The notes beneath the pieces are model-generated. The model worked only from the letters and a program-made list of their open reading frames with translations, was not told where the DNA came from and ran no database searches. A program made the position numbers and the translations under genes. 64,000 nucleotides of DNA from Candidatus Brocadiaceae bacterium (GTDB taxonomy: Bacteria > Planctomycetota > Brocadiia > SM23-32), in assembly GCA_012728835.1 (NCBI GenBank), contig JAAYEJ010000026.1:1-64000 (forward strand), given 5' to 3'. Shown in pieces: positions 6,517-59,618 of the stretch (positions are counted from its first letter, which is position 1; every line of letters begins with the position of its first letter).

Positions 6517-7869
6517 CTACAGCAGGTGTCCGCGCTTCTCGGCCGGGAGTTCGTTGGGGAAGCCGATGACCCGCTCACATGCGGCCCCCGCTTCGGCGGT
6601 GCGGTCCGCGAAGGCGGGGGAGAGGAAGACGTAGAGCTTCCAGAGCGCCTGGTGCTGTCGCTTGAGCACCTGCACCTCGTCGCTGTTCAGGTCCGAGAGG
6701 CGCGTCAGCGTCGCCTCGGGCACCAGGACGGGCACGTCGGCCTCCTTGAGCGCCATGCCGGCGGGCGCGCAGTAGATGGCCACGCGGTGCGGGGGCGCGC
6801 CGAGCGCGTCGGCGATGCGCCGCTCGGCCTGGTCCCGGGCGCCGTTCTCGTTGAGGTGGTGGCGGCGGACGGCATCCTCGACGGCGTCCTCTCCGATCTG
6901 GCGCGAGAGCATGTAGCAGCGCTTGAAGAGCCGCCGCATGCGGAAGCCGTCCAGAAGCTCGCGCAGTGCCTCATCGCCCCCGAACTCCCGCCCCAGGTGA
7001 TGGAGCAGCGCCTCGTCGGTCAGGGTGCACAGGTCCGCCTCGGTCAGCCCGCCGGCCAGCGCCCGCTCCACGGCCTTCGAGATCATGACGCCGGCGGCGA
7101 TCTTGGCGTGGTGGTAGTAGACGCGCTCGCTCAGGACGTAGCGGATGCGCAGCAGGTTGGTGACCTCGCTGAGGGCGTCGCGGCGGAAGAAGCCGTCGTG
7201 GCGCAGGTCGATCACCAGCCGGCCGTCGGCGATGCGGAAGTAATGGAAGACGCGCTCGTCGAAGTCGCGCGAGAGCCCGCAGAAGTAGTTGTCGCGCTTC
7301 AGGTAGTCGAGCAGGTCGGCGCAGATGGTGCCGCTGACGATCTGGCGCAGCCCCTCCAGCCTGGGCGGCACGGCCCGGCCGGGTTCGAGCAGTTGCAGCG
7401 CCAGGCGGCCTTCCTCGGTCGCCTCCAGGCGCTCGCGCAGCTCGCCGCCCCCCAGGAGAAGCCGAAACCGCGAACGGCTGTGGTCGTGGCGGTCCAGCAG
7501 CCGGCGCTCGTCCTCGAAGGTGTGGCCGAACGGGATGTGCGTGACGTCGTGCACGAGCGAGGCCAGGAAGACGGCGCGCTTGTGGACCTCAGGGAAGGCG
7601 AAGTCGCCCGAACGCTCGATCTGCTCCACGATGCGCTTGGCCATCCAGCAGGCGCCCAGGCAGTGCTCGAACCGCGTGTGCTGGGCGGAGGGGTAGACCT
7701 GGTAGGCGGCGCCGAGCTGGCGGATGCCCCGCAGGCGCTGCATCTGCGGGGTATCGAGCGCAGCCATCTCCCCCGGATCGAGGTAGATGTCCTTGTGGAC
7801 GGCGTCGCGGAGCTTGCGCGCGCGCATGCGATGCCCCGGGATGGGATTGAAGGCCTGGGATTCGGGCAT
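6517..7869 (-). CDS. HD-domain phosphohydrolase (dNTPase-like)
   Basis: 450 residues. HD-superfamily ligands are visible: HTRFEH (about residues 64-69), then LVHDVTHIPFGH with the HD pair at 107-108, and further acidic and His residues downstream. The VHKDIYLDPGEM N-terminus and the conserved QRLRGIRQLG segment match the YwfO/dGTPase-like HD proteins, which hydrolyse dNTPs or other phosphoesters. The extra C-terminal half is helical and charged. No signal peptide is present. The gene is divergent from the IclR gene. A TATAAT -10 element lies about 20 bases upstream. The substrate is unknown. Confidence 0.85.
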   Translation of the reverse strand: MPESQAFNPIPGHRMRARKLRDAVHKDIYLDPGEMAALDTPQMQRLRGIRQLGAAYQVYPSAQHTRFEHCLGACWMAKRIVEQIERSGDFAFPEVHKRAVFLASLVHDVTHIPFGHTFEDERRLLDRHDHSRSRFRLLLGGGELRERLEATEEGRLALQLLEPGRAVPPRLEGLRQIVSGTICADLLDYLKRDNYFCGLSRDFDERVFHYFRIADGRLVIDLRHDGFFRRDALSEVTNLLRIRYVLSERVYYHHAKIAAGVMISKAVERALAGGLTEADLCTLTDEALLHHLGREFGGDEALRELLDGFRMRRLFKRCYMLSRQIGEDAVEDAVRRHHLNENGARDQAERRIADALGAPPHRVAIYCAPAGMALKEADVPVLVPEATLTRLSDLNSDEVQVLKRQHQALWKLYVFLSPAFADRTAEAGAACERVIGFPNELPAEKRGHLL

Positions 7870-7888
7870 TCCCCGACGAATGCATGGG

Positions 7889-7894
7889 ATTATA
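7889..7894 (-). promoter_or_regulatory. Probable -10 element of the HD phosphohydrolase gene
   Basis: A perfect TATAAT on the minus strand lies 20 bases upstream of the ATG. The -35 region at 17-base spacing (GTGTAA) is weak. The short distance suggests a very short leader. Confidence 0.35.
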
Positions 7895-7928
7895 CGGCAC
7901 CGGGGCCGGCCTTACACGTGAAAGGGGC

Positions 7929-7958
7929 TTGACAACGGGGCGCGGGCGCCGGTAGAGT
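7929..7958 (+). promoter_or_regulatory. Promoter of the IclR gene
   Basis: TTGACA at 7929-7934, an 18-base spacer and TAGAGT at 7953-7958. The large dyad at 7960-7993 begins immediately downstream, so a protein bound there would cover the transcription start. Confidence 0.55.
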
Positions 7959-7959
7959 A

Positions 7960-7993
7960 TTCCATGAGAATGAATACATTCATTTATGTGGAA
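7960..7993 (+). promoter_or_regulatory. 34-bp dyad, probable IclR autoregulatory operator
   Basis: The core is AATGAAT-AC-ATTCATT (7969-7984), a perfect 7-base inverted repeat around a 2-base centre. An outer pair, TTCCA (7960-7964) and TGGAA (7989-7993), shares the same centre (7976.5). That gives 12 complementary positions of 17, with four unpaired positions between the inner and outer arms. It lies between the -10 element and the ATG at 7999, and its right end (GTGGAA) is the only plausible ribosome binding site. Binding by the IclR protein encoded just downstream is inference. Confidence 0.6.
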
Positions 7994-7998
7994 CATCC

Positions 7999-8733
7999 AT
8001 GATCCAGGTTCTGAGCCGGGCGCTGGGGATACTCGAGGAGCTGTCGGCGCGGGAATCCGGCTCCGTCAAGGAGCTTGCAGCGTCCAGCGGGCTCAAGAAG
8101 AGCACGCTCTGCAACATCCTGAAGACGCTCGCGCAGCTCGGCTACGTGACGAGGTCGGGGCGCGGCACCTATCGGCTGGGGCCGAGGCTCGGGCAGATCG
8201 CCCGGCCGCAGCTTCAGAAGGAGGCCCTCGCTCGGTTCGGGCGTGAGGCGGTCCTGGCGCTGGCGGACGCCACAGGCGAGTCGGCCCAGCTCGTCGTGCT
8301 TCGCGACGGGGAGCGCTACGTGCTGGCCGAGACCCGCAGCCGGCATGACCTCATTGTGAACACGGTTGTGCTCGGCATCACGGCGGCCGGGTCGGCAACG
8401 GGCCGCGCGATCCTCGCCCACCGGGGCGAGGAGGAAGTGAGAGACGCCCTGCAGCGGGCGGGCGGCGAGGCAGAGCCCCTCGGGGCGCTGAAGGCCGCCC
8501 TGCAGGAGGTCCGAGAGAACGGGCTCTCGGAGTACCACCCGCGCGGCCGGGACGTGGTGGCGCTGGGCGTGCCCGTCTTCTGCGGTGCGGAGGCCGTGGC
8601 CGCCCTGGGCGTCTACCTGCCGAGTGTGCGTTTCCGCGGCAAGCACCGTGCGGACGTGATCGAGTCGCTCAGAAGGGCCGGGAAGAACCTGTCCGTCAGG
8701 CTTTCGTCGGAGGCAGGCGGGCAGGCGGCGTAG
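7999..8733 (+). CDS. IclR family transcriptional regulator
   Basis: 244 residues. The N-terminal winged helix-turn-helix (residues 1-60, with SVKELAASSGLKKSTLCNILKTL) is followed by the IclR effector-binding domain (about 75-240: TAAGSATGRAILAH and VVALGVPVFCG). IclR proteins sense small carbon-source metabolites and usually repress an adjacent catabolic operon. The gene reads into the FAD oxidoreductase/PrpD genes 54 bases downstream, so these are its likely targets. The dyad overlapping its own start region suggests autoregulation. The effector is unknown. Confidence 0.92.
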   Translation: MIQVLSRALGILEELSARESGSVKELAASSGLKKSTLCNILKTLAQLGYVTRSGRGTYRLGPRLGQIARPQLQKEALARFGREAVLALADATGESAQLVVLRDGERYVLAETRSRHDLIVNTVVLGITAAGSATGRAILAHRGEEEVRDALQRAGGEAEPLGALKAALQEVRENGLSEYHPRGRDVVALGVPVFCGAEAVAALGVYLPSVRFRGKHRADVIESLRRAGKNLSVRLSSEAGGQAA

Positions 8734-8787
8734 GAGAGACGCCCCGGCGTTCTGCAGGATCAGCAACAGGAAGAAGGAATCAGACGG

Positions 8788-10212
8788 ATGGACAAGCAGA
8801 GGGTTCACGAGCCGGCACGGGATGTTGAGATCATCGAGTCAGCGGACGTGGTCGTGGTGGGTGGAGGTCCCGGCGGGATCCCCGCTGCGGTCGCCGCCGC
8901 TCGGGCGGGCGCGAAGACGGTGGTCATCGAGAGGTACGGCATCCTGGGCGGGCTGGCCACGACATGCCTCATGGGACCGCTCTTCGGCTACGCACCATTC
9001 GGGTACTTCGACTTCCATCAGGCGGGTTCGGAGAACCTCCTGGGCGGGATCCCGGTGGAGATCGTGCGGAGGCTCCAGCAGATCGGCGGCGCGCCGGATG
9101 ACAACGCCATCGACTGGCAAGCGGTGAAGTTCGATCCGGAACTCTTCAAGTTCGTCGCAGACGACATCGTCGAGGAGTCCGGGGCGATCATCCTGCTCCA
9201 CGCCTACACGGTGAACACGATCGTCGAGGACAGGAAGATCAAAGCGGTCGTCATCGAGAGCAAGTCGGGCCGGCAGGCGGTGACGGGCAAGGTGTTCATC
9301 GACGCCACGGGCGACGGCGACGTCGCGTTCTTCAGCGGTTGCTCCTATGCCAAGGGGCGGGAGGCGGACGGCGCCATGCTGGCATTCGGGTCCAGGTTCC
9401 GGATCGGCGGCCTCAGGCCCAGGACGCCTGAGGAGAAGCAGCAGTGCATCGATCTCTCGAAGGAAGTCATCGCCAGTGACGAGGTCCACATGCTGTCGGC
9501 CAGTGACTTCGAGGAGTGCGGCTCGTCGGTGCGCCCGAACGAGAGCACGCCCGACATCACCCGGCGTATGGGCGACGGCACCGACATGCGGGACCTCACG
9601 CGCGGCGAGCTGCAGATCCGCAAGGACACGATGGACATCCTGAACTTCCTGAAGGAGAAGGTGCCCGGCTTCGAGTCCTCGTATCTCATCGACACGCCCT
9701 TCGGGGTCGGCGTGCGGGAGACGCGGCAGATCGCGGGGAAGTACACCCTCACCACCGACGACGTGGCCAAGGTAAGGAAGTTCCCGGAGACGACCGTCGC
9801 CCGAGGCTGCTGGTTCTTCGACATGCACTGCCCGCTCGGACGCTGCTATCCGGGGAACGATTTCACCTCGGCGGTCTGCACCAAGCGCTGCAAGATGGCG
9901 CCCAACTGCATCATGAAGACCAGTTACGAGGACCATCTCCTCGACGACCCCTACCTGCCCAAAGGCGAGTATTACGACATCCCCTACGGGTGCCTCGTGG
10001 CGCAGGACATCGACAATCTCCTCATCTCGGGCCGCTGCGTTTCGGCCTCACACGAGGCCATGTCTTCGCTGCGCGTGATCGGCACCTGCTTCGCCATCGG
10101 CGAGGCGGCCGGCGTTGCGGCGGCGTGGAGCGCGGATCAGGACATCCGCCCCGAGGAGGTCAACGTAAGCGCATTGCAGAACCAGCTTCGCGACCAGGGG
10201 GTGCCGCTATGA
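8788..10212 (+). CDS. FAD-dependent oxidoreductase (FAD_oxidored family) with a Cys-rich insertion
   Basis: 474 residues. The N-terminal dinucleotide fold is VVVVGGGPGGIPAA, then ERYGILGGLAT as in the FAD_oxidored group. FIDATGDGDVA gives the second FAD motif and DIDNLLISGRCVSASHEA the C-terminal one. No signal peptide is present. Residues 348-374 hold five cysteines (348, 353, 364, 368, 374) in a segment that the paralogue at 58305-59618 lacks, which could bind a metal or Fe-S cluster. The stop overlaps the PrpD start (ATGA), so translation is coupled. The substrate is unknown; carbohydrate or hydroxy-acid oxidation is inferred from the GH4 neighbour. Confidence 0.88.
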   Translation: MDKQRVHEPARDVEIIESADVVVVGGGPGGIPAAVAAARAGAKTVVIERYGILGGLATTCLMGPLFGYAPFGYFDFHQAGSENLLGGIPVEIVRRLQQIGGAPDDNAIDWQAVKFDPELFKFVADDIVEESGAIILLHAYTVNTIVEDRKIKAVVIESKSGRQAVTGKVFIDATGDGDVAFFSGCSYAKGREADGAMLAFGSRFRIGGLRPRTPEEKQQCIDLSKEVIASDEVHMLSASDFEECGSSVRPNESTPDITRRMGDGTDMRDLTRGELQIRKDTMDILNFLKEKVPGFESSYLIDTPFGVGVRETRQIAGKYTLTTDDVAKVRKFPETTVARGCWFFDMHCPLGRCYPGNDFTSAVCTKRCKMAPNCIMKTSYEDHLLDDPYLPKGEYYDIPYGCLVAQDIDNLLISGRCVSASHEAMSSLRVIGTCFAIGEAAGVAAAWSADQDIRPEEVNVSALQNQLRDQGVPL

Positions 10213-11735
10213 CAACGGAGCCGGCCGGTGCGTGGGAACGGCTCAACCCGGGGATGTTCGATGAAACCCCGGGCACGGTCGGCCGCCACACAAGAGACGT
10301 CGCCGCCTTCGTGAGTCGGGTCGACTATGACGACCTGCCGGCTGGGGTGGTGACGGACACGAAGCACCTCATCCTCGACACCATCTCCTGCGCCCTGACC
10401 GGCCGGGACGTGGCCTCCGCACGCATCACCAGGGAGGTCAGCAACTACCTCGGCGGCGGTGCGCAGGCAAGCGTGATCGGCACGCGGGACCGGACGTCGC
10501 CGCCGCTCGCCGCGATGGTGAACGCCAAGATGGCCAACGCCATCGACCTGGACGACTGCTTCATGAACATTGCGCACTTCGCTCCGCAGGCCACGATGGC
10601 GCCGCTGGCACTCGGTGAATCGCTGCATCGCTCGGGCCGGGAGGTGATCGTCGCGGTGGCCGCCGGCTACGAGGTGGCGGCGCGGATCGCGCTGGCCGCC
10701 AACTTCTGGAAGGTCACCGGCCAACTGGTCTACGGCGGCGGCAGCGAGCGGCTCGTGTTCGGGGCGAACGTCTTCGGCGCAGCGGCGGCTGCCGTCAAAG
10801 CGCTCGGGCTGGACGAGCAGGCGGCCGCGACCGCGCTCGGCGTGTGCGGCTACTTCGCGCCTTCCCTCATCCGGAGCAGCGAATCGGCGCTGGAGCCGCC
10901 GACTTATGGCGATGCGGGCTACATGGCAAAATACTGCGACGCCGGATGGTCCACCTTTACCGGCGTCATGAGCGCCGTCTACGCCAAGACGGGCTTCGTC
11001 GCCAACCGGCACTCCCTGGACGGCCGGCACGGATACATGAGGATTATGGGCGGCGAGGGCGTCAACGAGGACATGCTCACGCACGGCCTCGCCCGAGACC
11101 AGGAGCATTGGTGCGTGTCCGACTCGGCCCTGAAGACCCACCCGTGCTGCAAGTACGTACACACGCCGCTGCACCTGTTCCTCGAACTCGTCGAGGAGAA
11201 CGGGCTCCGCGTCGAGGACATCGAGAGGGTGACCGTGCACCTGCGCCCGTCGCACGCGATGGGCTTTGCGGACCAGACCGTGCAGGTCATGCAAGGGATC
11301 CCCTGCACGCACAACATCCCCTACAACCTGGCCATGGCGGCGTTCGGGATGACGCCGACCCACGAATGGCATGCCGAGGGCAATGCGGACGACCCGAAGG
11401 TGCGGGCGTTCATGCGGAAGGTGTTCACGCAACCCTCGGGCGAGGCGCCCCGGACGGGCGTGGAGGACATTCGGGCCTGCGGCTTCCCCAAGAGGATCTT
11501 CTCCCAGGTGGATGTCCAGTGTGCCGGGAAGGCCTTCAGCAAGAGCGCGGACCGGGTCAAGGGAGACCCCTGGTGGGAGGAAACGAAGTTCACCGACCGG
11601 GACCGCTTCGACAAGCTCACGCGGTGCGCCGCCGGGACTCTGGGCAGGGAGCGGACCGAGGCCGTGTGGGAGTGTATCATGGGTCTCGAAGACACCGCCG
11701 ACGTCGCGGCGCTCGCCGAACTGCTCAGGCCGTGA
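10209..11735 (+). CDS. MmgE/PrpD family protein (2-methylcitrate dehydratase fold)
   Basis: 508 residues. The start at 10209 overlaps the FAD gene stop in ATGA. The all-helical PrpD N-domain carries HLILDTISCALTGR, NAKMANAIDLDD and HPCCKYVHTPLHLFLEL. The C-terminal small domain starts near residue 385. Family members include 2-methylcitrate dehydratase and itaconate or aconitate decarboxylases. Nothing here shows methylcitrate-cycle context, so it more likely dehydrates or decarboxylates a sugar-acid-like product of the neighbouring oxidoreductase (inference). The last 114 bases of this gene are duplicated at 13298-13411. Confidence 0.88.
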   Translation: MTTEPAGAWERLNPGMFDETPGTVGRHTRDVAAFVSRVDYDDLPAGVVTDTKHLILDTISCALTGRDVASARITREVSNYLGGGAQASVIGTRDRTSPPLAAMVNAKMANAIDLDDCFMNIAHFAPQATMAPLALGESLHRSGREVIVAVAAGYEVAARIALAANFWKVTGQLVYGGGSERLVFGANVFGAAAAAVKALGLDEQAAATALGVCGYFAPSLIRSSESALEPPTYGDAGYMAKYCDAGWSTFTGVMSAVYAKTGFVANRHSLDGRHGYMRIMGGEGVNEDMLTHGLARDQEHWCVSDSALKTHPCCKYVHTPLHLFLELVEENGLRVEDIERVTVHLRPSHAMGFADQTVQVMQGIPCTHNIPYNLAMAAFGMTPTHEWHAEGNADDPKVRAFMRKVFTQPSGEAPRTGVEDIRACGFPKRIFSQVDVQCAGKAFSKSADRVKGDPWWEETKFTDRDRFDKLTRCAAGTLGRERTEAVWECIMGLEDTADVAALAELLRP

Positions 11736-11817
11736 GCACGACGCAGCGCAGGGCGTCGTGGAAGAGGCCGCGCAATGCGCGGAGAGACGAGCGGTCCACA
11801 ACTACCGGAGGATCTCA

Positions 11818-11943
11818 ATGACTGCCGCCTCGCAGCTTCAGGTCGTCCCCCCGGACCCCAAGGTCCACCTGCCCTGCCATCTTGACGCGGCGTGTAGATG
11901 GGGCGTTCTGGGCTTTGCCGGGAGGTCGGGCCATGGCAGGTAA
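11818..11943 (+). pseudogene. 5' remnant of a duplicated acetyltransferase gene, now a 41-codon leader frame
   Basis: The first 19 codons (MTAASQLQVVPPDPKVHLP) match the start of the acetyltransferase gene at 13464 (MGAAPELQVVAPDPKVHLP). The similarity then stops abruptly after CACCTGCCC. The frame keeps an intact GGAGGA ribosome binding site and ATG, and runs to a TAA at 11941-11943, inside the start of the GH4 gene. It is therefore a truncated gene copy that may still be translated and couple to GH4. Confidence 0.7.
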
Positions 11944-13237
11944 GGTCGCTGTGATCGGTGCTGGGAGCGCGTTTGTCGCCGGCATCCTGAACACGCTCGC
12001 CGAGCGTGCCGATGAGATGGCCGGGTGGTCCGTCGTGCTGGAGGACGTGAAGCCCGAACGGCAGGAGACGATGCTGGCACTCGGGCGGAACCTGTTCCGC
12101 GCGCGCGGCGCGGACATCGAGATCAGCGCGACGCTCGACCTGGACGAGGCCCTGACGGACGCGGACTTCGTCATCACGTGCTTCCGCATCGGCGGGTTCG
12201 AGGCGCTGAACCTGGACGTGTCCATCCCGCTCAAGTACGGCATCTACGGCGACGAGACCTCCGGGCCCGGCGGCATCTTCTTCGCCTGCCGCACCATCCC
12301 CGTCGTCGTGGACATCGCCAAGCGCATGGAGCGGCTCTGCCCGGACGCCGTGCTGGTCAACTACGCGAACCCCACCTCGTTCGTCGCCGACGCCGTGCGC
12401 CGCCAGAGCACGATCGAGGAGATATCGATCTGCAGCGGCTTCATGGGCGTGGCCGGGCTGGTCGAGCAGTTCCTGGGAATCCCGCGCGAGAAGGTCGTGC
12501 CGATCACGGCGGGCGTCAACCACTACACCTGGCTCCTGCATGCCTACGTGGACGGCAAGGACGTGGCGCCTGAGCTGCGTGAGAAGCTCATCGTGTCCGA
12601 CACGAGCAAGTCCTCCTTTGGCTGGCAGCGCACGGTCGAGCTGGCCAGGATCTACGGCATCGTGCCCATCCCGGGCGGCCACATGGTGGACTACTTCTGG
12701 CGCCGCGAGTCGGTCGAGCACGCGCGCGAGAGCGGCCACTGGGGCCTGGCGAAGCCGGCCGGCGGCGGACGCAGCGTCGTGTGGGATCACTACGAGGCGC
12801 TCGCGAAGGCGGACGACCCGCGGTTCGACATGGACATCCCCGGCCTGCCGCACCTGGTAGGCACGGTGAGCGACCTGGCCGTCGACCTGGTCATCACGAT
12901 CGCGAACGACGACCGCAAGGTCTTCGCCGTGAACATGCCGAACAACGGGCAGATCACGAACATGCCGCGTGGCGAGATCGTCGAGTCATCGGCGCTGGTG
13001 GGCGCGTTCGGGGCGATCCCGTTCGCGGTCGGCGACCTGCCGGACTTCGTGCTGCCGATGACCGAGATGCTGGCGCGCAGCCGCAAGCTGGCGGTGGACG
13101 CGGCGTTCAGCGGCGACCGCGACAGGCTGCTCTACGCCCTGATGGCCGACCCGCTCGTGGACTCGCTGCCGCAGGCGCAGCCCATGATGGACGAGATGCT
13201 GGCCGCGCAGGCGCAGTGGCTCCCGCAGTTCGCGTGA
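11933..13237 (+). CDS. Glycoside hydrolase family 4 protein
   Basis: 434 residues. The N-terminal NAD-binding motif is KVAVIGAGSAFVAG. GDETSGPGG (about 107-114) and LVNYANPTSFV (about 141-151) are GH4 hallmarks, and the metal ligands are Cys167 (ISICSGF) and His197 (GVNHYTW). GH4 enzymes cleave alpha- or beta-glycosides through an NAD-dependent 3-keto intermediate and a divalent metal. The linkage and substrate cannot be assigned. The start at 11933 is chosen because a GGGAGG site lies 8 bases upstream. The gene sits between two scars of the FAD/PrpD/acetyltransferase genes, so it was probably inserted or retained during a duplication. It differs from the second GH4 at 56985. Confidence 0.9.
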   Translation: MAGKVAVIGAGSAFVAGILNTLAERADEMAGWSVVLEDVKPERQETMLALGRNLFRARGADIEISATLDLDEALTDADFVITCFRIGGFEALNLDVSIPLKYGIYGDETSGPGGIFFACRTIPVVVDIAKRMERLCPDAVLVNYANPTSFVADAVRRQSTIEEISICSGFMGVAGLVEQFLGIPREKVVPITAGVNHYTWLLHAYVDGKDVAPELREKLIVSDTSKSSFGWQRTVELARIYGIVPIPGGHMVDYFWRRESVEHARESGHWGLAKPAGGGRSVVWDHYEALAKADDPRFDMDIPGLPHLVGTVSDLAVDLVITIANDDRKVFAVNMPNNGQITNMPRGEIVESSALVGAFGAIPFAVGDLPDFVLPMTEMLARSRKLAVDAAFSGDRDRLLYALMADPLVDSLPQAQPMMDEMLAAQAQWLPQFA

Positions 13238-13256
13238 GGCAGCAACGGATCTACCA

Positions 13257-13411
13257 CGAAGGAAGTCATCGCCAGCGACGAGGTCCACAAGCTGTCGCGG
13301 TGCGCCGCCGGGACTCTGGACAGGGAGCGGACCGAGGCCGTGTGGGAGTGTATCATGGGCCTCGAAGACACCGCCGACGTCGCGGCGCTCGCCGAGCTGC
13401 TCAGGCCGTGA
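13257..13411 (+). pseudogene. Chimeric remnant: FAD oxidoreductase fragment fused to PrpD 3' end
   Basis: 13257-13297 matches 9458-9498 of the FAD gene at 39 of 41 bases by eye. 13298-13411 matches 11622-11735, the 3' end of the PrpD gene including its TGA, at 111 of 114. The join keeps the reading frame (KEVIASDEVHKLSRCAAG) and the frame is open to the original stop, but there is no start codon. It is in frame with, and just after, the GH4 stop codon. This is the deletion scar of a second FAD-PrpD copy upstream of the acetyltransferase gene. Confidence 0.85.
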
Positions 13412-13463
13412 GCGCCGAACGCCGCCGGCGGAAGCACGTTCACCACAGCAGAGAGGGAACCGC

Positions 13464-14678
13464 ATGGGCGCCGCCCCCGAACTCCAGGTCGTTGCGCCGG
13501 ATCCGAAGGTCCACCTGCCCGAGATGTACGAGATGTGCGCCAAGGTTTTCAGCAAGCCCGAGCGCCACGCAACCTTCCTCGAATGGTGCAGGAACGCCTA
13601 CATCGGGAACTCGCACTACGACTGGAACACGGCGACGATCGGCATCCTGGACGGGCGCATCGTCACGCACTACGGCATCTGGGGCTACGTGATGCGCATC
13701 GGCTCGGCGCGCATCCGCAAGACGGGCGTCGGGCTCGTGGCCACCCACCCCGACTACCGCAAGCGCGGGCTGATGACGCTGACGGCCAACCGCAGCATGG
13801 AGCTGATGCGCGAGAACGGCTACGACATGTCCACCGTCACCGGCATCGCCCACTACTACGACCGCTTCGGCTACGTGCCGGCCTGGAACGTCACGGACTA
13901 CAGCGTCGAGGCGCACCACCTGCCGGACGAGAAGCCCGGCGTCCGCATCCGCACGTTCGAGCCGGGCCATCACGCCGATCTGGCGAAGCTCTACAACCGC
14001 CGGAACGCGCGGCGCACGTGCACCGTCATGCGGCCCACGTTCCTGAAGAACCAGCGGCCCGGTCAGTGGTTCGGCTATCGCTGGAACGACACCGACGGCA
14101 AGCTCGCGGGCTACGTCATCGTCTCGAAGGAAAAAAGCACCCTCCGCGCCCTCGACTGGGCGGGCAACGACGCCGACACGTTCGCCGTGCTCTGCTCGCT
14201 CGTTCGGAAGCACGGCAGCGAAATCCTGGCCTTCAAAGGCATGCACTACGACGACCCGCTGCGTACGCGCGTGATCGGGCAGTTCTGCGCCACAGCCACC
14301 ACGCGCTACCGCAGCACCGGCGGCCCGATGATCACAACGATCAACCTGGCCTCCACGCTCACGAAGCTGGCCGGCGAGTTCTCGAGGCGCCTGAAGGACT
14401 CATCGGCCGCCGACTGGCAGGGAAGCCTGGTCATCGCCGACGCCAACGAGAAGGCCACGCTCCTGATCGACCGCTCGAAGGTTGAGGTGGGACCGCCGGC
14501 CCGCACGAAGCACTCCATCTCCGGCGGGAATCACATCGCGCGGCTCCTCATCGGCTCCGACGAGCCCGGCGAGGTCGTCAAGGACGCCGGCATGAGGCTG
14601 ATGGGCGACGCCCGGCGCCTGGTCGAGGTGCTCTTCCCCAACAACCATCCCACCCAGGGGCAGTGGGACCACGTCTGA
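13464..14678 (+). CDS. GNAT N-acetyltransferase, Eis-like
   Basis: 404 residues, the usual length of Eis-type proteins with two GNAT folds and a C-terminal SCP2-like domain. The acetyl-CoA loop region reads VGLVATHPDYRKRGLMTLT (about residues 92-110), with RKRG matching the Q/RxxGxG/A motif. YDRFGYVPAW follows, as in Eis. The C-terminal part (about 300-400) fits the sterol-carrier-like domain. Eis enzymes acetylate amines such as aminoglycosides or lysine side chains; the substrate here is unknown. It is the last gene of the IclR-headed run and converges on scpB. Its 5' end is duplicated at 11818. Confidence 0.82.
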   Translation: MGAAPELQVVAPDPKVHLPEMYEMCAKVFSKPERHATFLEWCRNAYIGNSHYDWNTATIGILDGRIVTHYGIWGYVMRIGSARIRKTGVGLVATHPDYRKRGLMTLTANRSMELMRENGYDMSTVTGIAHYYDRFGYVPAWNVTDYSVEAHHLPDEKPGVRIRTFEPGHHADLAKLYNRRNARRTCTVMRPTFLKNQRPGQWFGYRWNDTDGKLAGYVIVSKEKSTLRALDWAGNDADTFAVLCSLVRKHGSEILAFKGMHYDDPLRTRVIGQFCATATTRYRSTGGPMITTINLASTLTKLAGEFSRRLKDSSAADWQGSLVIADANEKATLLIDRSKVEVGPPARTKHSISGGNHIARLLIGSDEPGEVVKDAGMRLMGDARRLVEVLFPNNHPTQGQWDHV

Positions 14679-14703
14679 CGTCGGAAACGGGACGACGGGG
14701 GCG

Positions 14704-15507
14704 TCACGGGGCCGTCGCGTCGGGTTCGTCGTCCGCCCGGGGGGCCTCCTCGGCCGACGCCGTCGGCTCGGGAGCGGTCGGAGTGTCGACCCCGGCCTTG
14801 TCGACGGACGGCGCAGAGCCCGGCCGGTTCGCGGCGAGCCGGTCGAAGTCGGCCCGCTTGGGCAGGTCCTTGATCGAGCGGAGGCCGAAGACCTCCAGGA
14901 AGTGCTTCGTCGTGCCGTAGAGGAGGGGGCGGCCCAGCTCCTCGCTGCGGCCGACCACCTTGATGAGCCGCCGGCCGGCGAGGGCCCGCAGGATCGAACC
15001 GGCCTGCACGCCGCGGATATCGTCGACCTCGGCGCGCGTGATCGGCTGGCGGTAGGCGACGACGGCGAGCGTCTCCAGGGCGGCCTTGCTGAGGGTCTCC
15101 TGGCGCTGCTGGGTGTTCAGGCGGCCGATCCAGGGGGCGTATTCGGGGCGCGTGAGCATCTGGAAGCCGCCGGCGATCTCTTCCAGCGAGAAGGCGTGTC
15201 CGCCCTCGTCGTACTGGCGCTTGAGTTCCTTCAGGGCCGCGCGCACCTGCCGGCCGTCGGCCGTCCCGGCGGCCTCGCTCAGCCGCCGGACGCTCACGGG
15301 ACGGTCCGTGCTGAAGAGCAGCGCTTCAACGATCGCCTTCAGTTCGGACAGATCAGTCGAATCGGTCGAATCAGTCGGATCGAGCGGCTCCCCGTCCTCG
15401 TCCGCCTCGGGGCCTTGGGCCGGCTCGGCGGCTTCCGGCTCCTCGGGCTGGTCGTCCGCGGCGGGTTCCTGCACGGGATGTTCGGCCGGCACTTCCTGGT
15501 CGCTCAT
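14704..15507 (-). CDS. scpB: Segregation and condensation protein B
   Basis: 267 residues. ScpB dimers join Smc and ScpA in the chromosome condensation complex. The core at about residues 60-210 shows the two winged-helix domains: LKAIVEALLFSTDRPVS, LAVVAYRQPITRAEVDDIRG and the LLYGTTKHFLEVFGLRS signature. It is flanked by acidic, Pro-rich tails at both ends. The N-terminal tail includes DPTDSTDSTDLSE, encoded by a 31-base GATC-rich repeat. The ATG overlaps the rnfG stop (ATGA), so it is translationally coupled to the rnf operon. scpA is not in the window. Confidence 0.92.
   Translation of the reverse strand: MSDQEVPAEHPVQEPAADDQPEEPEAAEPAQGPEADEDGEPLDPTDSTDSTDLSELKAIVEALLFSTDRPVSVRRLSEAAGTADGRQVRAALKELKRQYDEGGHAFSLEEIAGGFQMLTRPEYAPWIGRLNTQQRQETLSKAALETLAVVAYRQPITRAEVDDIRGVQAGSILRALAGRRLIKVVGRSEELGRPLLYGTTKHFLEVFGLRSIKDLPKRADFDRLAANRPGSAPSVDKAGVDTPTAPEPTASAEEAPRADDEPDATAP
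15351..15381 (-). repeat. 31-base GATC-rich repeat inside scpB
   Basis: The element starts GATCAGTCGAATCGG and ends GATC after 31 bases. It is the same length and layout as three elements at 44561, 44967 and 45228. Read on the minus strand it encodes Asp-Pro-Thr-Asp-Ser-Thr-Asp-type residues in the ScpB linker. Confidence 0.5.
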
Positions 15508-16184
15508 CGGCCGTAGACCTCCGCCGTGCGTTCGATGATACGTCCCACGGCATTGCGGACGGCCAGCGTGGTCGCCTCGCTGGTCCTCGTGGCGCCCGTC
15601 ACGGCCGCGATCCGGTCGGTGTCCTTCCGCGTCTCCACGACCAGATCGCTGAGCCGCTTGCCGGAGAACTGGTCCTGGAACCATGGACGCCGCTCCGCCG
15701 GTCTCGCCCCGGCGAGCGCGCCCCAGACGGACACGTCCTTCTCGACGGCCCGGATGTTCTCGCCCAGGCCCGGAGTCTCACCACTCTCGAACACGGCCAT
15801 GGCGTGGATGACGGGGTCGGCGGCCAGCGCACCGTTCGGCGAGTCGGCACGCACGGACACGATGACCTCGACGGTACTCTGGTAGCCCTTGGCCTCGCCC
15901 CTAGCGGCGTAGAGGGTCCGCCCGTCGTCGCGGCAGACGTATACTTTGTCCTCGTCGGCGACGTCCTGCGCGTAGGCGCCCACCGTGCCGTACTCGTCCG
16001 CTTCGCCCAGAACGGCCTGCAGCGCCTGCCGGAACGCCCTGGCCATGTTCTCTTCGATGTCGGATTTCATGGCCTGGTAGAGCGCGGCGACGCCGAGCCC
16101 GCTGACCAGGCAGATAGCGGCGAGCACGATGACGGCGGTGGGCGGCCGGCGCGATCCGGGCCTCGCCTGCAGATCCTCAGTCAT
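15504..16184 (-). CDS. rnfG: Electron transport complex subunit RnfG
   Basis: 226 residues. It has an N-terminal membrane anchor (about residues 17-37: AVIVLAAICLVSGLGVAAL) and an extracytoplasmic FMN-binding domain. The covalent flavinylation motif is VTGATRTS near residues 195-202, with the acceptor Thr at about 199. ETPGLGENI is the conserved G-rich segment of the FMN_bind fold. It overlaps rnfD by 4 bases and scpB by 3. RnfG relays electrons within the ferredoxin:NAD oxidoreductase that pumps Na+ or H+. Confidence 0.93.
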   Translation of the reverse strand: MTEDLQARPGSRRPPTAVIVLAAICLVSGLGVAALYQAMKSDIEENMARAFRQALQAVLGEADEYGTVGAYAQDVADEDKVYVCRDDGRTLYAARGEAKGYQSTVEVIVSVRADSPNGALAADPVIHAMAVFESGETPGLGENIRAVEKDVSVWGALAGARPAERRPWFQDQFSGKRLSDLVVETRKDTDRIAAVTGATRTSEATTLAVRNAVGRIIERTAEVYGR

Positions 16185-23307: not shown

Positions 23308-23356
23308 CGGCTCGTCCCGCATCTACCGGTTCATGCGGCCTTTGCCGGGCCGCACC

Positions 23357-24469
23357 TCACTCGTCGAGCGTCCCCGGCCGAAGGCCCGTCGGGAGCGGCG
23401 CGGGACGTTCGCACGTGCTCCCGAGTTCCACGTGGCGGCCCGTCTTCGCCGACTCCAGGAATGCCTGCATGGCGTCGAGCACGTGGAAGGCCATGTCGCC
23501 GTTGGCCCGGTGCGGGCGCCCCGACCGGATCGCGTTGGCCAGGTCGGCCACGCCGAGGCCGCGGCTGTTCTCGTCGTTGCTGTGCGTGTGCGGGATCTCT
23601 TCCCAGTCCCCGGCGTCCGGGCGCCAGAGGCTGACCGTGCCGCCGAAGGTGTTCGGGTCCGGCACGCTGAGCGTTCCCTCGGTGCCGAACACCTGGATGC
23701 GTGGCACGCGTGCCGCGTAGACGTCGAAGCTCGTGATGATCGTGCCCACGGCGCCGCACTCGAAGTCGATCGAGCCGGCGATGTGCGTCGGCGTGTTGAC
23801 CTTGATGATCTCGCCGCGGTGCGGTTCGCTGCCGATCACGCGCTCGGGGAAGGATATCTGCGCCATGCCCGTCACGCGCCGGATCGGGCCGACCAGGTTG
23901 ACCAGGGCGGTCAGGTAGTAGGGGCCCATGTCGAACATGGGGCCGGCGCCCGGCTGGTAGAAGAAGTTCGGGTCCGGGTGCCAGTTCTCCATCCCGCGGC
24001 CCATCATGAACGCGACGGCGGCAACCGGCCGGCCGATGCGCCCGTCCTCGATGACCTTGCGGCAGGTCTGGATGCCGGCGCCGAGGAACGTGTCCGGCGC
24101 GCAGCCCACGCGCACGCCGGCCTCCCGGGCGGCGGCCACCACGCGCGCGCCGTCCTCGCGCGAGGTCGCCAGAGGCTTCTCGGTGTGCACGTGCTTGGCG
24201 GCCGCCACGGCGGCCAGCTCGATCTCGGCGTGCACGGCCGGGGGCGTCAGGTTCACGACGATGTCCACGTCCGGATCGGCCATCAGATCCTCGGTCGTGC
24301 AGACGCGCGGCACGCCGAACTCCTCGGCCCTCGCCGCGGACCGCTCCGGGATGATGTCCGCGCACGCGACGACTTCGAGGTTCTCGAAGAGCTGCTGCGC
24401 GTTCTTCAGGTAGATGCCGCTGATGTTGCCGCACCCGACGATTCCCAGCCTCGTCTTCCGCCCTGCCAT
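23357..24469 (-). CDS. Gfo/Idh/MocA family oxidoreductase, copy 1 of a tandem pair
   Basis: 370 residues. N-terminal NAD(P) Rossmann motif [13 protein letters not shown] and the family lysine motif HTEKPLAT (EKP near residue 97). The C-terminal beta-sheet substrate domain has [16 protein letters not shown] with its conserved Asp and Tyr. AAGGAG precedes the ATG at 24469 by 6 bases. These enzymes oxidise or reduce sugars and cyclitols at one carbon. It aligns without gaps to the upstream neighbour (24750-25862) with roughly 62 differences in 370 positions by eye, so it is a tandem duplicate. The substrate is unknown. Confidence 0.88.
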   Translation of the reverse strand: MAGRKTRLGIVGCGNISGIYLKNAQQLFENLEVVACADIIPERSAARAEEFGVPRVCTTEDLMADPDVDIVVNLTPPAVHAEIELAAVAAAKHVHTEKPLATSREDGARVVAAAREAGVRVGCAPDTFLGAGIQTCRKVIEDGRIGRPVAAVAFMMGRGMENWHPDPNFFYQPGAGPMFDMGPYYLTALVNLVGPIRRVTGMAQISFPERVIGSEPHRGEIIKVNTPTHIAGSIDFECGAVGTIITSFDVYAARVPRIQVFGTEGTLSVPDPNTFGGTVSLWRPDAGDWEEIPHTHSNDENSRGLGVADLANAIRSGRPHRANGDMAFHVLDAMQAFLESAKTGRHVELGSTCERPAPLPTGLRPGTLDE

Positions 24470-24502
24470 AACGTCTCCTTCCGTGAGTCGCACACCGGAT
24501 TC

Positions 24503-24558: not shown

Positions 24559-24749
24559 CAGCGCAGAATCATAGCCGCGAGCCGCGGAGGATACAACGGC
24601 GGCCGGCGCTCCACAAGGGGCGCGTGCCGTCCCCGCCGGCGCCCGAGAGGCCGAACACCAGTCCCGGCCGGTTCGGTGCCATCGACCCGCGGGGCGAGAC
24701 GCCCCGGGACGCTAACGGCGCAGAACGGCGGGGCATGAGTGGGAGCCCC

Positions 24750-25862
24750 TCAATCGTCCAGCGTGCCCGGCCGAAGGCCTGTGGGCAGCGGCGCCGGGCG
24801 CTCGCACGTGCTCTCGATCTCGACGTGCCGGCCGGTCTCGGAGGCCTCCAGGAATGCCTGCATGACGTCCAGCACGTGGAAGGCCAGGTCACCGTTGGCC
24901 CGGTGGGCGCGGCCCGAACGGATAGCGGCGGCCATGTCGGCCACACCGAGGCCGCGGCTGTTCTCGTCGTAGGTGTGCGTGAGCGGCACGTCCTGCCAAT
25001 CCTCCGCGTCCGGACGCCAGAGGCCGACCGGGCCGCCGAACCCGTTGGGATCGGGCACCGTGAGCGTGCCCTCGGAGCCGAACACCTGGATGCGCGGCAC
25101 GCGTGCCGCGTAGACGTCGAAGCTCGTGATGATCGTGCCCACGGCGCCGCACTCGAAGTCGATCGAGCCGGCGATGTGCGTCGGCGTGTTGACCCTGATG
25201 ATCTCGCCGCGGTGCGGCTCGCTGCCGATCGTGCGCTCGGGGAAGGAGATCTGCGTCGAACTCGTCACCCGGCGGACCGGGCCGATCAGGTTGACGAGGG
25301 CGGTCAAGTAGTAGGGGCCCATGTCGAACATGGGACCGCCGCCGGGTTGGTAGTAGAAGTCCGGGTCGGGGTGCCAGCTCTCGTGCCCGTGGTTCATCAT
25401 GAAGGCGATGGCGGCGACGGGGCGGCCGATGCGGCCCTCGTCGATCAGCTTGCGGCACGTCTGGATGCCGGCGCCGAGGAACGTGTCCGGCGCGCAGCCC
25501 ACGCGCACGCCGGCCTCCCGCGCGGCGGCAACCACGCGCGCCCCGTCCTCACGGGTCGTCGCCTGGGGCTTCTCCGTGTAGACGTGCTTGCCCGCGTCGA
25601 TGGCGGCCATCTGGACCGGCACGTGCGTCGCGGGTGTCGTCAGGTTCACGACGATGTCCACGTCCGGGTCCGCCACCAGTTCCTCGGCCGTGCAGACGCG
25701 CGGCACGCCGAACTCCTCGGCCCTCGCCGCGGACCGCTCCGGGATGATGTCCGCGCACGCGACCACCTCGATGGCCTCGAAGAGCTGCTGCGCGTTCTGC
25801 ATGTAGATGCCGCTGATGTTGCCGCATCCGACGATGCCCAGCCTGGTCTTCCGCTCCGCCAT
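24750..25862 (-). CDS. Gfo/Idh/MocA family oxidoreductase, copy 2 of a tandem pair
   Basis: 370 residues, the same length as the copy at 23357-24469. [13 protein letters not shown] gives the NAD(P) fold and YTEKPQAT the catalytic Lys segment; the C-terminal domain has [23 protein letters not shown] precedes the ATG at 25862. Differences from copy 1 cluster at residues 75-102 ([14 protein letters not shown]) and around MMNHGHESW. These regions line the cofactor and substrate pocket in the family, so the two copies may have diverged in specificity (inference). No sugar-binding or transport gene is adjacent. Confidence 0.88.
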
Positions 25863-25944
25863 GTCGTCTCCTTCGCTCAATCGGGCTCCGAGCCGCCAGG
25901 GGATGATATCGGCCGGCCGGGGCGGCAGCAACGTCCGCCGCGGA

Positions 25945-44560: not shown

Positions 44561-44591
44561 GATCAGACGGATCGGTCGGATCGGACTGATC
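44561..44591 (+). repeat. 31-base GATC-rich palindromic element, intergenic
   Basis: Starts GATCAGACGGATCGG and ends CGGACTGATC. The outer 13-base arms are complementary at 11 positions around a 5-base centre. It lies between rsfS and the four-helix-bundle gene, 18 bases upstream of that gene's ATG. Confidence 0.6.
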
Positions 44592-44609
44592 ATCGGGGAG
44601 GAGGCGGCG

Positions 44610-45386
44610 ATGGCGCGCAAGCTGCGGCCTGGCGGAGGGTACCGGAACACAGTCAGTTTCCAGGCGGCGACGGTCATCTATGATGCCACGTACTGGTTTT
44701 GCGAGCGGTTTGTCGATCAACGTTCGCGCACTGTAGACCAGATGGTGCAGGCCGCGCGGTCGGGCCGGCAGAACATCGCCGAAGGAAGCCGCGCAGCGGC
44801 GACCTCTTCGCAGACGGAGCTGCGCCTGCTGAACGTGGCGCGTTCCAGCCTGGAGGAACTGCTGCTCGACTACGAGGACTTCCTGCGGCACAGGCGCCTG
44901 GCGCAGTGGGCGCCGGATTCGGCCGAGGCGAAGGCGGTGCGGGATGTGCCGCGCAAGTTCAAGGAGGATCAGTCGGATCGGTCGGATCCGACTGATCTCA
45001 CGGCCCTAACGGACGCCCAGCGCTGGGCGCTCTATGCGCCGTGGCTGGAGCATGCGGAAGGAGCCATACGGGCCAATGCGCTCATCTGCCTGATCAACCA
45101 GGCGAACTACCTGCTCGACCGGCAGATCGCTGCGCTCGAGGAGCAGTTTGTGAAGGAAGGCGGCTACAGTGAGCAACTGGCCACCGCCCGGCTTGCGGAG
45201 CGCAGCCGGGAGCGGGCCGTTGAAGCCGATCAGTCTGATCCGTCGGATCCGCCCGATCCGATCCCGCCGTGCCCCCTCTGCGGCAAGCCCACGGTTCTGC
45301 GCACGGCGCGCACGGGCAAGAACGCCGGACGGCAGTTCTGGGGCTGTTCGGGGTATCCCGACTGCAAGGGCGTGGTGCGCGCGTGA
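44610..45386 (+). CDS. Four-helix-bundle (S23-like) protein with C-terminal topoisomerase-type zinc ribbon
   Basis: 258 residues. Residues about 15-115 resemble the S23/23S-rRNA-IVS four-helix bundle (QMVQAARSGRQNIAEGSRAA, ELRLLNVARSSLEELLLDYEDF). A second helical part, LTDAQRWALY to LLDRQIAALEEQFVKEGG, follows. The end is a zf-C4_Topoisom ribbon, CPLCGKPTVLRTARTG with QFWGCSGYPDCKGVV. The two linkers, DQSDRSDPTD and DQSDPSDPPD, are encoded by 31-base GATC-rich elements. This fits the four-helix-bundle suffix-domain group of unknown function. It converges on leuD with no gap. Confidence 0.82.
   Translation: MARKLRPGGGYRNTVSFQAATVIYDATYWFCERFVDQRSRTVDQMVQAARSGRQNIAEGSRAAATSSQTELRLLNVARSSLEELLLDYEDFLRHRRLAQWAPDSAEAKAVRDVPRKFKEDQSDRSDPTDLTALTDAQRWALYAPWLEHAEGAIRANALICLINQANYLLDRQIAALEEQFVKEGGYSEQLATARLAERSRERAVEADQSDPSDPPDPIPPCPLCGKPTVLRTARTGKNAGRQFWGCSGYPDCKGVVRA
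44967..44997 (+). repeat. 31-base palindromic GATC-rich element inside a coding sequence
   Basis: Perfect 13-base inverted arms, GATCAGTCGGATC (44967-44979) and GATCCGACTGATC (44985-44997), flank a 5-base centre. It is read in frame as a DQSDRSDPTD-type linker of the four-helix-bundle protein, so it could have been inserted without breaking the frame. Confidence 0.65.
45228..45258 (+). repeat. Degenerate 31-base GATC-rich element inside a coding sequence
   Basis: Starts GATCAGTCTGATCCG and ends GCCCGATC after 31 bases. It encodes the second Asp/Ser/Pro linker (DQSDPSDPPD) before the zinc ribbon of the four-helix-bundle protein. The right arm has decayed. Confidence 0.5.
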
Positions 45387-52450: not shown

Positions 52451-52490
52451 CGGAAATCGCTCCGTCCCGGCGGGCTCGTCGCCTCAGGGG

Positions 52491-52672
52491 TGGCGCCGGG
52501 CGCGCACGGGGGCGGCGGCGGGCAGGGGCGCGTGCACGGGCGCACGCACGGGCGCACGCGCCAGCCGTTCCTCCTGTGTTGGGGTTGGCGCCGGGCACGT
52601 GCGGGGGCAGCGGCGGGCGCCCTCGCCCGGCGGGGGGGCGGCGCGGGCAGGGGCGCGTGCACGGGCGCACGC
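52491..52672. repeat. G+C-rich imperfect tandem repeat between tetR and glmS
   Basis: A 29-base block beginning CGGGCAGGGGCGCGTGCACG is present identically at 52519-52547 and 52644-52672. A related head, TGGCGCCGGGC, occurs at 52491 and 52586. Inside each block the unit CACGGGCGCACG is itself repeated. It fills most of the 391-base gap between the divergent tetR and glmS genes. No gene or intrinsic terminator is evident in it. A weak glmS promoter (TTGACG at 52702-52707, TAATGT at 52726-52731, 18-base spacer) follows. Confidence 0.6.
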
Positions 52673-52771
52673 GCCCCCACGCACGGTGGCGCAGGCGCTC
52701 GTTGACGCGGGCTGCCAGTCTGCGGTAATGTGGTGCCTCCAAGGGGGCATCGGCCAGAGGGGACAGAGGGC

Positions 52772-56984: not shown

Positions 56985-58268
56985 ATGACCGATAGGTTGA
57001 CCATCTGCCTCGTGGGGGCCGGGAGTTCCTACACGCCCGAGATCGTGCACGGCCTGCTGGGACTCTCGCCCGAGCGTCTGCCCATCGGCGCCGTGCACAT
57101 GACCGACATCGACGAGCGCCGCCTCTCCATCATGGCCGGCCTGTCGCGCCGCATGGTGGCCGCAGCGGGCAGCGACGTCGAGGTCCGCGACGACGTCTCG
57201 CTGGACGCCATGCTTCAGGGAGCGGACTTCGTCGTCACCGAGGTCCGCGTCGGCGGCATGGAGGCGCGCTACCTGGACGAGAGCATCCCGCTGAAATACG
57301 GCATCATCGGCCAGGAGACCACCGGCCCGGGCGGCATGATGAAGGCCCTGCGCACGATCCCGCCCATGATCGAGATCGCCCGGGCGGTCGAGCGCGTCTG
57401 CCCCGACGCCTTCATCCTGAACTACACGAACCCGAGCGGCATCGTCACCGAGGCCGTGACCAAACACACGGGCGCGCGCTTCGTGGGGCTCTGTTCCGGC
57501 CTCCCGGGCATCACCCAGCGCATCCGCGAGAAGCTCGCCGACGTCTACCCCGACCTGCACGTCTACTGCGTCGGCCTGAACCACCTCGGGTTCGTCCATC
57601 GCATGGTCTCGGACGGGCGCGACGTGACGGCCGACGCCATTGCGCGGCTCTACTCGCAGGACGAACGGGCGGGGGTGGACAACGCCCAGATGGCCGTGGC
57701 CCGGCTGGTCAACACGATCGATGCCGTGCCGATCAGCTACGTGAACTACTTCTACCGGCGCCGCCAGCGCGTGGAGCAGGCCCAGGCGGCACCCGAGACG
57801 CGCGCGCAGGCGATCATGAAGATCCAGAAGGACGTCTTCGAGGAGGCCGCCCGCCAGGACGTGCACACCAAGCCCCAGGCGCTCGCGAAGCGCGGGGGCG
57901 GCGGCTACTCGAACGTCACCTTCTCCGTCATGGACGCCATCCGGAACGACACGGGCGCCGAGATCGCGTGCAGTGTGCCCAATCGGGGGACGGTCGAGCA
58001 GATCGACGACGACGCGTCGGTCGAGGTCGTCTGCCGGTTCGGCCGCCGGGGGCCCGTCCCGGTGCCCGTCGGCCCGATCCCGCCGGCGTTCCGGGGCCTG
58101 GTGCTGGCCGTCAAGGCGTACGAGACGCTCACGGTCCAGGCGGCGGTCACGCGCAGCCGGAAGACGGCCCTCCAGGCGCTGCTGAACCACCCGCTGGTCG
58201 GCGACCTGGACGTCGCGGCGCCGCTGCTGGACGAGATGCTCGAGGCCCACGGGCTGGACTTCCGTTGA
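56985..58268 (+). CDS. Glycoside hydrolase family 4, 6-phospho-glycosidase-like
   Basis: 427 residues. The NAD-binding motif is ICLVGAGSSYTPEIVHGLL, close to LicH/CelF-type 6-phospho-beta-glucosidases. GQETTGPGGMMKALRTIP and LNYTNPSG are GH4 hallmarks, and the metal ligands are Cys170 (VGLCSGLP) and His200 (GLNHLGF). It uses NAD and a divalent metal through a 3-keto intermediate. It follows the sugar kinase by 88 bases and precedes a FAD oxidoreductase by 36, so it probably acts on a phosphorylated disaccharide or oligosaccharide (inference). An AGGGGAAC site precedes the ATG. Confidence 0.92.
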   Translation: MTDRLTICLVGAGSSYTPEIVHGLLGLSPERLPIGAVHMTDIDERRLSIMAGLSRRMVAAAGSDVEVRDDVSLDAMLQGADFVVTEVRVGGMEARYLDESIPLKYGIIGQETTGPGGMMKALRTIPPMIEIARAVERVCPDAFILNYTNPSGIVTEAVTKHTGARFVGLCSGLPGITQRIREKLADVYPDLHVYCVGLNHLGFVHRMVSDGRDVTADAIARLYSQDERAGVDNAQMAVARLVNTIDAVPISYVNYFYRRRQRVEQAQAAPETRAQAIMKIQKDVFEEAARQDVHTKPQALAKRGGGGYSNVTFSVMDAIRNDTGAEIACSVPNRGTVEQIDDDASVEVVCRFGRRGPVPVPVGPIPPAFRGLVLAVKAYETLTVQAAVTRSRKTALQALLNHPLVGDLDVAAPLLDEMLEAHGLDFR

Positions 58269-58304
58269 GGCCGGTCGGACTCCTCGTTCCGGGAGGGCTT
58301 CCCC

Positions 58305-59618
58305 ATGACCGACACAGTCGTGCGAACGGAGGAACGCGGCATCCGCGTTCTTCATGACGTGGACGTGATCGTCGTCGGCGGCGGACCGGGCGGCATCGGC
58401 GCCGCCGTGGCGGCCGCCCGCCTGGGCGCCCGGACGCTGCTGTGCGAGCAGTACGGCTTCCTGGGCGGCATGGCCACGGCCGGGCTCGTCGAGCCGTTCA
58501 TGTGGAGCGGCCTGGAGGGGCAGCGGTTCGATACGGGCATCTTCCGCGAGTGGTGCGCCGCGATGGAGCGCATGGGGGGCCTGGCGCCCAACGGCAGCAC
58601 GTTCTGCTCCGAAGTCGCCAAGCTGGCCGCCGAACACCTCTGCCTGGACGCGGGCGTGCAGCTCCTCTACCACGTGCAACTGGACCGGCCCGTGATGGCG
58701 GGGCGCGACATCGACTGCGTCCTGATGCTGGGCAAGAGCGGCCTGACGGCCCATCGCGCCCGCGTCTTCGTCGACGCCACGGGCGATGCCGACCTGGCCG
58801 CGCGCGCCGGCTGCCGCATCGAGTACGGCCGGCCCGAAGACGGGCAGGTGCAGCCCATGACGCTCTGCTTCGACATGGCCGGCGTCGACCTCGCCGCCAT
58901 GCCCGGGCAACACGTCATCAACGAGCTGTACCAGAAGGCGCGGGCGGAAGGGCGGGTGCACTGCCCGCGCGAAAACGTGCTCTGGTTCCGCACGCTGGAA
59001 CCCGACCGCATCCACTTCAACACCACGCGCATCGTCGGGTACAGGGCCACGGACACGCTCTCCTATTCCGAAGCCGAGGTCGAGGGGCGCCGCCAGGTCG
59101 TGGAGTACGTGGAGTTCCTGCGGCGCGACGTGCCGGGGTTCGAGCGGGCGCGGCTGCACGCGCTGGCCGTGACGATGGGCGTGCGCGAGAGCCGCCGCGT
59201 GCGCGGGCGCGCCTACCTGACGCGCCGCGACTACGAGAGCGCCGCGAAGTTCCCCGACGGCATATGCCGTGTGAACTACGTGATCGACATCCACAGCCCC
59301 ACGGGAGAGGGCACCGAGATCGTGTCCATGCCGCCGGGGGAGTGGTACGAGATACCCTACGGCTGCATCGTGCCGCGCGGCTGCGAGAACCTGCTGGTGG
59401 CCGGCCGCCCCATCAGCGTCGACCATGCCGTGCACTCGTCCATGCGCGTCATGCCGCCGGCCTGCACCATCGGGCAGGCGGCCGGCACGGCGGCGGCCCT
59501 GGCCGTGCGCGAGCAGGCGTCGCCGGCGGAAGTGGACGGCGTGCAGGTGCGCCGCTCGCTCATCGAGCAGGGGGTCTGGCTGGAAGGTCCGCCTCCGGAG
59601 AGGGAGGAGGCATCGTGA
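58305..59618 (+). CDS. FAD-dependent oxidoreductase (FAD_oxidored family), second copy
   Basis: 437 residues. VDVIVVGGGPGGIGAAVAAAR and EQYGFLGGMATAGL give the FAD fold, VFVDATGDADLAA the second FAD motif and CENLLVAGRPISVDHAVHSS the C-terminal one. It is related to the protein at 8788-10212 along its length but lacks that protein's five-cysteine insertion; the equivalent segment reads IHSPTGEGTEIV. The stop overlaps the GTG start of the sulfatase-like gene. It probably oxidises a sugar or sugar acid. Both copies in this window lie next to a GH4 gene. Confidence 0.88.
   Translation: MTDTVVRTEERGIRVLHDVDVIVVGGGPGGIGAAVAAARLGARTLLCEQYGFLGGMATAGLVEPFMWSGLEGQRFDTGIFREWCAAMERMGGLAPNGSTFCSEVAKLAAEHLCLDAGVQLLYHVQLDRPVMAGRDIDCVLMLGKSGLTAHRARVFVDATGDADLAARAGCRIEYGRPEDGQVQPMTLCFDMAGVDLAAMPGQHVINELYQKARAEGRVHCPRENVLWFRTLEPDRIHFNTTRIVGYRATDTLSYSEAEVEGRRQVVEYVEFLRRDVPGFERARLHALAVTMGVRESRRVRGRAYLTRRDYESAAKFPDGICRVNYVIDIHSPTGEGTEIVSMPPGEWYEIPYGCIVPRGCENLLVAGRPISVDHAVHSSMRVMPPACTIGQAAGTAAALAVREQASPAEVDGVQVRRSLIEQGVWLEGPPPEREEAS

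Follow-up and report, generated by a model that had tools for sequence, protein, structure and literature searches.

The GH4 glycosidase gene lies between fragments copied from its own neighbour genes, as the preliminary description of this locus had claimed (E = 1e-5, 5e-11 and 6e-54 when the window, i.e. the whole 64 kb stretch of DNA that was analysed, is compared with itself). These fragments are genuine leftovers of past copying and deletion. The best explanation overall, which we hold as somewhat probable, is an acquired block in which an FAD oxidoreductase gene, a PrpD gene and an acetyltransferase (AT) gene passed through a tandem state with GH4 at the joint, followed by a later deletion.

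An additional block between scpB and the HD gene

The GH4 gene belongs to a set of genes on the plus strand that separates two genes of the minus strand:

6517-7869, minus strand: HD-domain gene, one flank of the block
7870-14703, no strand assigned: inserted block from IclR to AT, about 6.8 kb; its flanking genes lie side by side in four sister genera
7999-8733, plus strand: IclR-family regulator, first gene of the block (Pfam IclR_C, HTH_IclR)
8788-10212, plus strand: FAD-dependent oxidoreductase (FAD_oxidored, PF12831, 2e-104), intact; source of the FAD' fragment at 9458-9498
10209-11735, plus strand: MmgE/PrpD-family gene (PF03972, PF19305), intact; source of the PrpD' fragment at 11608-11737
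11933-13237, plus strand: GH4 glycosidase, alpha-galactosidase-like (PF02056, PF11975; best NCBIfam model PRK15076, under its cut-off)
13464-14678, plus strand: GNAT acetyltransferase (AT), intact; Acetyltransf_9, weakly Eis-like
14704-15684, minus strand: scpB, the other flank of the block

Both Glyco_hydro_4 domains of the GH4 gene exceed the Pfam cut-off. The genomes G001 (contig C375), G003 (C78), G004 (C3) and G006 (C421), which represent four further genera of the family, carry scpB directly next to the HD gene on one strand. Since the pair is unbroken there, the present genome has about 6.8 kb of additional sequence at this point, running from IclR to AT. The same four are sister genomes with neither scars nor GH4 at the locus, which the preliminary description had named as support for its model. 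No transposase or integrase is found among the block genes, nor a target-site repeat at the block ends, where the longest shared word is 6. In codon-position G+C the block genes resemble their neighbours, and thus composition does not mark the block as foreign; its acquisition is suggested by its absence from relatives.

Fragments on either side of the GH4 gene

The region between the intact PrpD and AT genes contains, apart from GH4 itself, the following features:

11738-11817, plus strand: spacer 1, 80 nt, with an 8-bp and a 6-bp hairpin
11818-11874, plus strand: AT' scar, the first 19 codons of AT from the ATG at 11818; direct repeat of 13464-13520
11875-11932, plus strand: 58 nt of no clear source, with GGGAGG ahead of the GH4 start
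13257-13297, plus strand: FAD' scar, 39/41 against 9458-9498 (E = 5e-11, self-comparison)
13298-13413, plus strand: PrpD' scar, the last 38 codons and the stop, plus 2 bases beyond
13414-13463, plus strand: spacer 2, 50 nt

The alignments that had been proposed as a check, of 9458-9498, 11622-11735 and 13464-13520 against the scars, all match beyond shuffled sequence. The core of the AT' repeat (11824-11874 against 13470-13520) extends over 51 nt at 80% identity, with E = 1.3e-5 in the 64 kb self-comparison and a score reached by 0/100 dinucleotide shuffles. PrpD' matches its source at 111/114 bases (13298-13411 against 11622-11735), and the similarity in full covers 130 nt at 95.4% (13284-13413 against 11608-11737, E = 6e-54 in the self-comparison), breaking off 2 bases after the PrpD stop codon. 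A gapped alignment of FAD' may begin a few bases before 13257. The scores of all three local direct repeats are not reached by shuffled controls. Thus, the fragments are copies of the adjacent intact genes with order and orientation kept, and the direct-repeat pairs keep one register, with spacings of 1646 and 1676 nt.

The join between FAD' and PrpD'

At the join, FAD reads ACATGCTGTCG, PrpD reads ACAAGCTCACG and the scar reads ACAAGCTGTCG. The two endpoints have 8 of 11 bases in common (ACA-GCT--CG), yet exact common runs are only 2-3 bases long. Within the scar, one site has the base of PrpD and another the bases of FAD, and the crossover therefore probably fell inside this partial homology. 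It should be noted that a point mutation following a join at 2-base homology would give an identical picture.

The join is in frame, with FAD ending past codon 237 and PrpD entering at codon 472, and the frame is that of the preceding GH4 gene when read beyond its TGA. No ATG, GTG or TTG is found in frame upstream of the join, and translation of the fusion is thus unlikely. An in-frame join had been considered unexpected for pure decay; since it occurs in 1 of 3 cases by chance and no start codon precedes it, it is uninformative and needs no special cause. Folding around the joins, that of FAD'/PrpD' included, gives nothing notable.

Unequal divergence and unrelated spacers

The two scars differ from their sources to very different degrees. 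Between AT' and intact AT, 13/54 bases differ (24%; 4 fall at first, 1 at second and 8 at third codon positions), whereas for FAD'/PrpD' the count is 5/153 (3%), these short alignments of 54 and 153 bases allowing only coarse age estimates. At third positions, 8/18 and 3/51 sites differ, respectively (Fisher p = 2e-5 over the full alignments and 5e-4 at third positions alone). FAD'/PrpD' would be recent or would have been subject to conversion restricted to FAD/PrpD. The differences within the AT pair are biased to third positions (p = 0.02), which indicates that at least one of the two copies was constrained as coding sequence while much of the AT divergence arose.

Spacer 1 and spacer 2, each lying between a PrpD end and an AT start, show no relationship to one another, 984/1000 shuffles reaching their alignment score. 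Directly after the PrpD stop, at 11737-11760, there is a perfect 8-bp hairpin (CACGACGC/GCGTCGTG) followed by the 6-bp hairpin; the former occurs once in the window and is not present in spacer 2. From the unequal divergence and the unrelated spacers, it follows that there were at least two events of differing age, or conversion of FAD/PrpD only, or two divergent alleles.

Relatives of the block genes

Own genome apart, no PrpD match was obtained among 75 genomes of the class (E <= 1e-40) or among 392 genomes of the phylum (E <= 1e-60), and no relative was found that carries FAD, PrpD and AT together. The best relative of AT, at 38% identity, is unlinked in G010, and among the AT homologues in six genomes none adjoins FAD, PrpD or GH4. 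Searches for a named donor gave one weak match via AT in genome contigs, with the donor not found, no match via PrpD in viral contigs and, among the matches listed, plasmid PrpD homologues of at most 29%, with no donor found. None of the genomes searched, a set with no second genome of the genus, represents an intermediate stage.

GH4 has a single close relative, in G001, with 80% amino acid identity at a different locus. That locus is without FAD, PrpD and AT, has no recognisable scars and shows no AT similarity in the upstream flank of the gene. A candidate shared scar downstream of the G001 gene, a 20-nt PrpD match (19/20), was rejected: 4/300 shuffles score equally high, and the match sits in the apparent C-terminus of another gene. 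In the own genome, the site beside the orthologue of the neighbour of the G001 gene (C57) holds a sulfatase-like gene and no GH4, which does not establish that GH4 moved. Elsewhere in the window, at 57003-59585, there is another GH4 (32% identity) with another FAD oxidoreductase (32%) after it, which repeats the family pairing of 8788-13237.

Expression signals at the GH4 gene

AT' retains GGAGG, a ribosome-binding site, before its ATG, and its frame is open for 41 codons to 11943, just inside GH4, so that it overlaps the GH4 start. The sole sigma-70-like site in the block lies before IclR, at 7929-7958; 0.6 such sites are expected by chance. These signals suggest that GH4 may be transcribed with the operon and translated in a coupled manner, and the placement of the AT' leader on GH4 is a possible expression-capture effect. 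Between the promoter-like site and the IclR start there is also a palindrome, AATGAAT-AC-ATTCATT (7969-7984), which is a candidate operator.

Proposed history and its alternatives

In the explanation that we favour, the IclR-led block of 6.8 kb (IclR, FAD oxidoreductase, PrpD and AT) would have entered between scpB and the HD gene. Within it, FAD-PrpD-AT would once have been present twice, head-to-tail, and GH4 would have stood where a truncated AT' met a truncated FAD'. About 2.1 kb, from the FAD' interior to near the PrpD' end, would later have been lost in a deletion at the 11-bp partially homologous site, which produced the present scar. The AT' part would be old or from a different allele, and the FAD'/PrpD' part would be recent or have been held similar by conversion prior to the deletion. 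As an outcome, GH4 would have gained a place within the operon, with an existing translation start ahead of it. It speaks against this explanation that the spacers and AT' do not look like copies of the same age as PrpD', so that the tandem state itself is inferred. The sequences directly show the fragments, their identities, the unequal divergence, the unrelated spacers and the empty site, whereas the order of events, the conversion or alleles and the effect on expression are deduced.

The preliminary description had proposed a tandem duplication followed by two internal deletions. The copies do stand in the order of their neighbours; two deletions are not needed, as a duplication ending inside FAD and AT truncates AT and FAD' in one step and leaves one later deletion, inside FAD'-PrpD'. 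This reduction has a price, since conversion, another allele or a further event must then be assumed. Without conversion, a single FAD-PrpD-AT duplication with two deletions suits the gene order of the fragments as a head-to-tail copy. It predicts, however, that every fragment has diverged to the same degree and that the PrpD-AT spacers resemble each other, and in this simple form it is contradicted by the divergence of 24% against 3% (p = 2e-5) and by the unrelated spacers; we consider it improbable. The unrelated spacers, together with the near-identical PrpD ends (130 nt, 95%) and the 80% AT', are jointly accounted for if the segment from the PrpD' 3' end through spacer 1 and AT' to GH4 came from a related block of another strain. 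Recombination via the PrpD 3' end into a resident FAD-PrpD-spacer 2-AT arrangement would then have left GH4 between PrpD 3' direct repeats. Such a mosaic of two alleles deserves consideration but is rather doubtful: a crossover in PrpD alone leaves the FAD' piece unexplained, and a donor with the unusual FAD'/PrpD' fusion is required, a locus not found in the searches made.

The fragments could instead be functional: AT' could act as a translation-coupled leader of GH4, and FAD'/PrpD' could form a small ORF or an RNA element. The GGAGG before the ATG, an ORF that stops just within GH4 and a frame that is still intact despite the divergence would all fit AT', but FAD'/PrpD' has neither a start codon upstream of its join nor a notable fold, and neither fragment was found in any relative; we regard this as very unlikely. 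Equally little credence is given to the narrower idea that the diverged AT' was retained as a coupled leader placing GH4 under the IclR operon, a scar turned regulatory part. An assembly artefact might be suspected in a draft genome of 82 contigs. However, several to many base differences separate the copies and the GH4 borders are without a long exact repeat; an error from long identical repeats is unlikely, because exact words shared by the copies reach 39 nt at most, and we give an artefact almost no weight.

The favoured duplication is supported by a second tandem pair in the window, of Gfo/Idh-like genes at 23352-24481 and 24745-25874 (87% over 1130 nt). A tandem arrangement of two similar dipeptidase-like genes also occurs on a different contig of this genome (L066, 7292-9861), and the two pairs hint at frequent tandem duplication here. 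The window also has short local repeats of 31-76 nt with 78-97% identity at 52487-52675 and 44561-44997, and the copy at 44967-44997 forms a near-palindrome.

Relation to known systems

The SNAP hypothesis describes tandem duplication followed by loss of parts, and its authors suggest a search for remnants, i.e. pseudogenes with matching active copies (PMC7055797). The present fragments do have matching intact copies; unlike SNAP, which concerns a large chromosomal segment with essential genes, they involve a few kilobases in one operon, and the full second copy is not seen (PMC7055797). Tandem duplications that put a transferred gene behind an existing promoter have been selected in the laboratory (PMC11111574). 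As in such promoter capture by spontaneous duplication, a new joint here would supply a gene that is foreign or has been moved with the expression signals already present ahead of it (PMC11111574), whereas in our case the joint is deduced, the effect on expression is predicted and the duplicate has since been mostly deleted. The present case thus matches both systems in part, with ages that disagree.

Taken together, the fragments are real, the earlier reading of them was partly wrong, and the case is one of ordinary genome plasticity, in which no view of mechanism is altered by the GH4 scars. What they offer is a compact and legible record of a gene drawn into an acquired operon through copying and deletion, and their unequal ages warn that adjacent scars should not be taken as one event.
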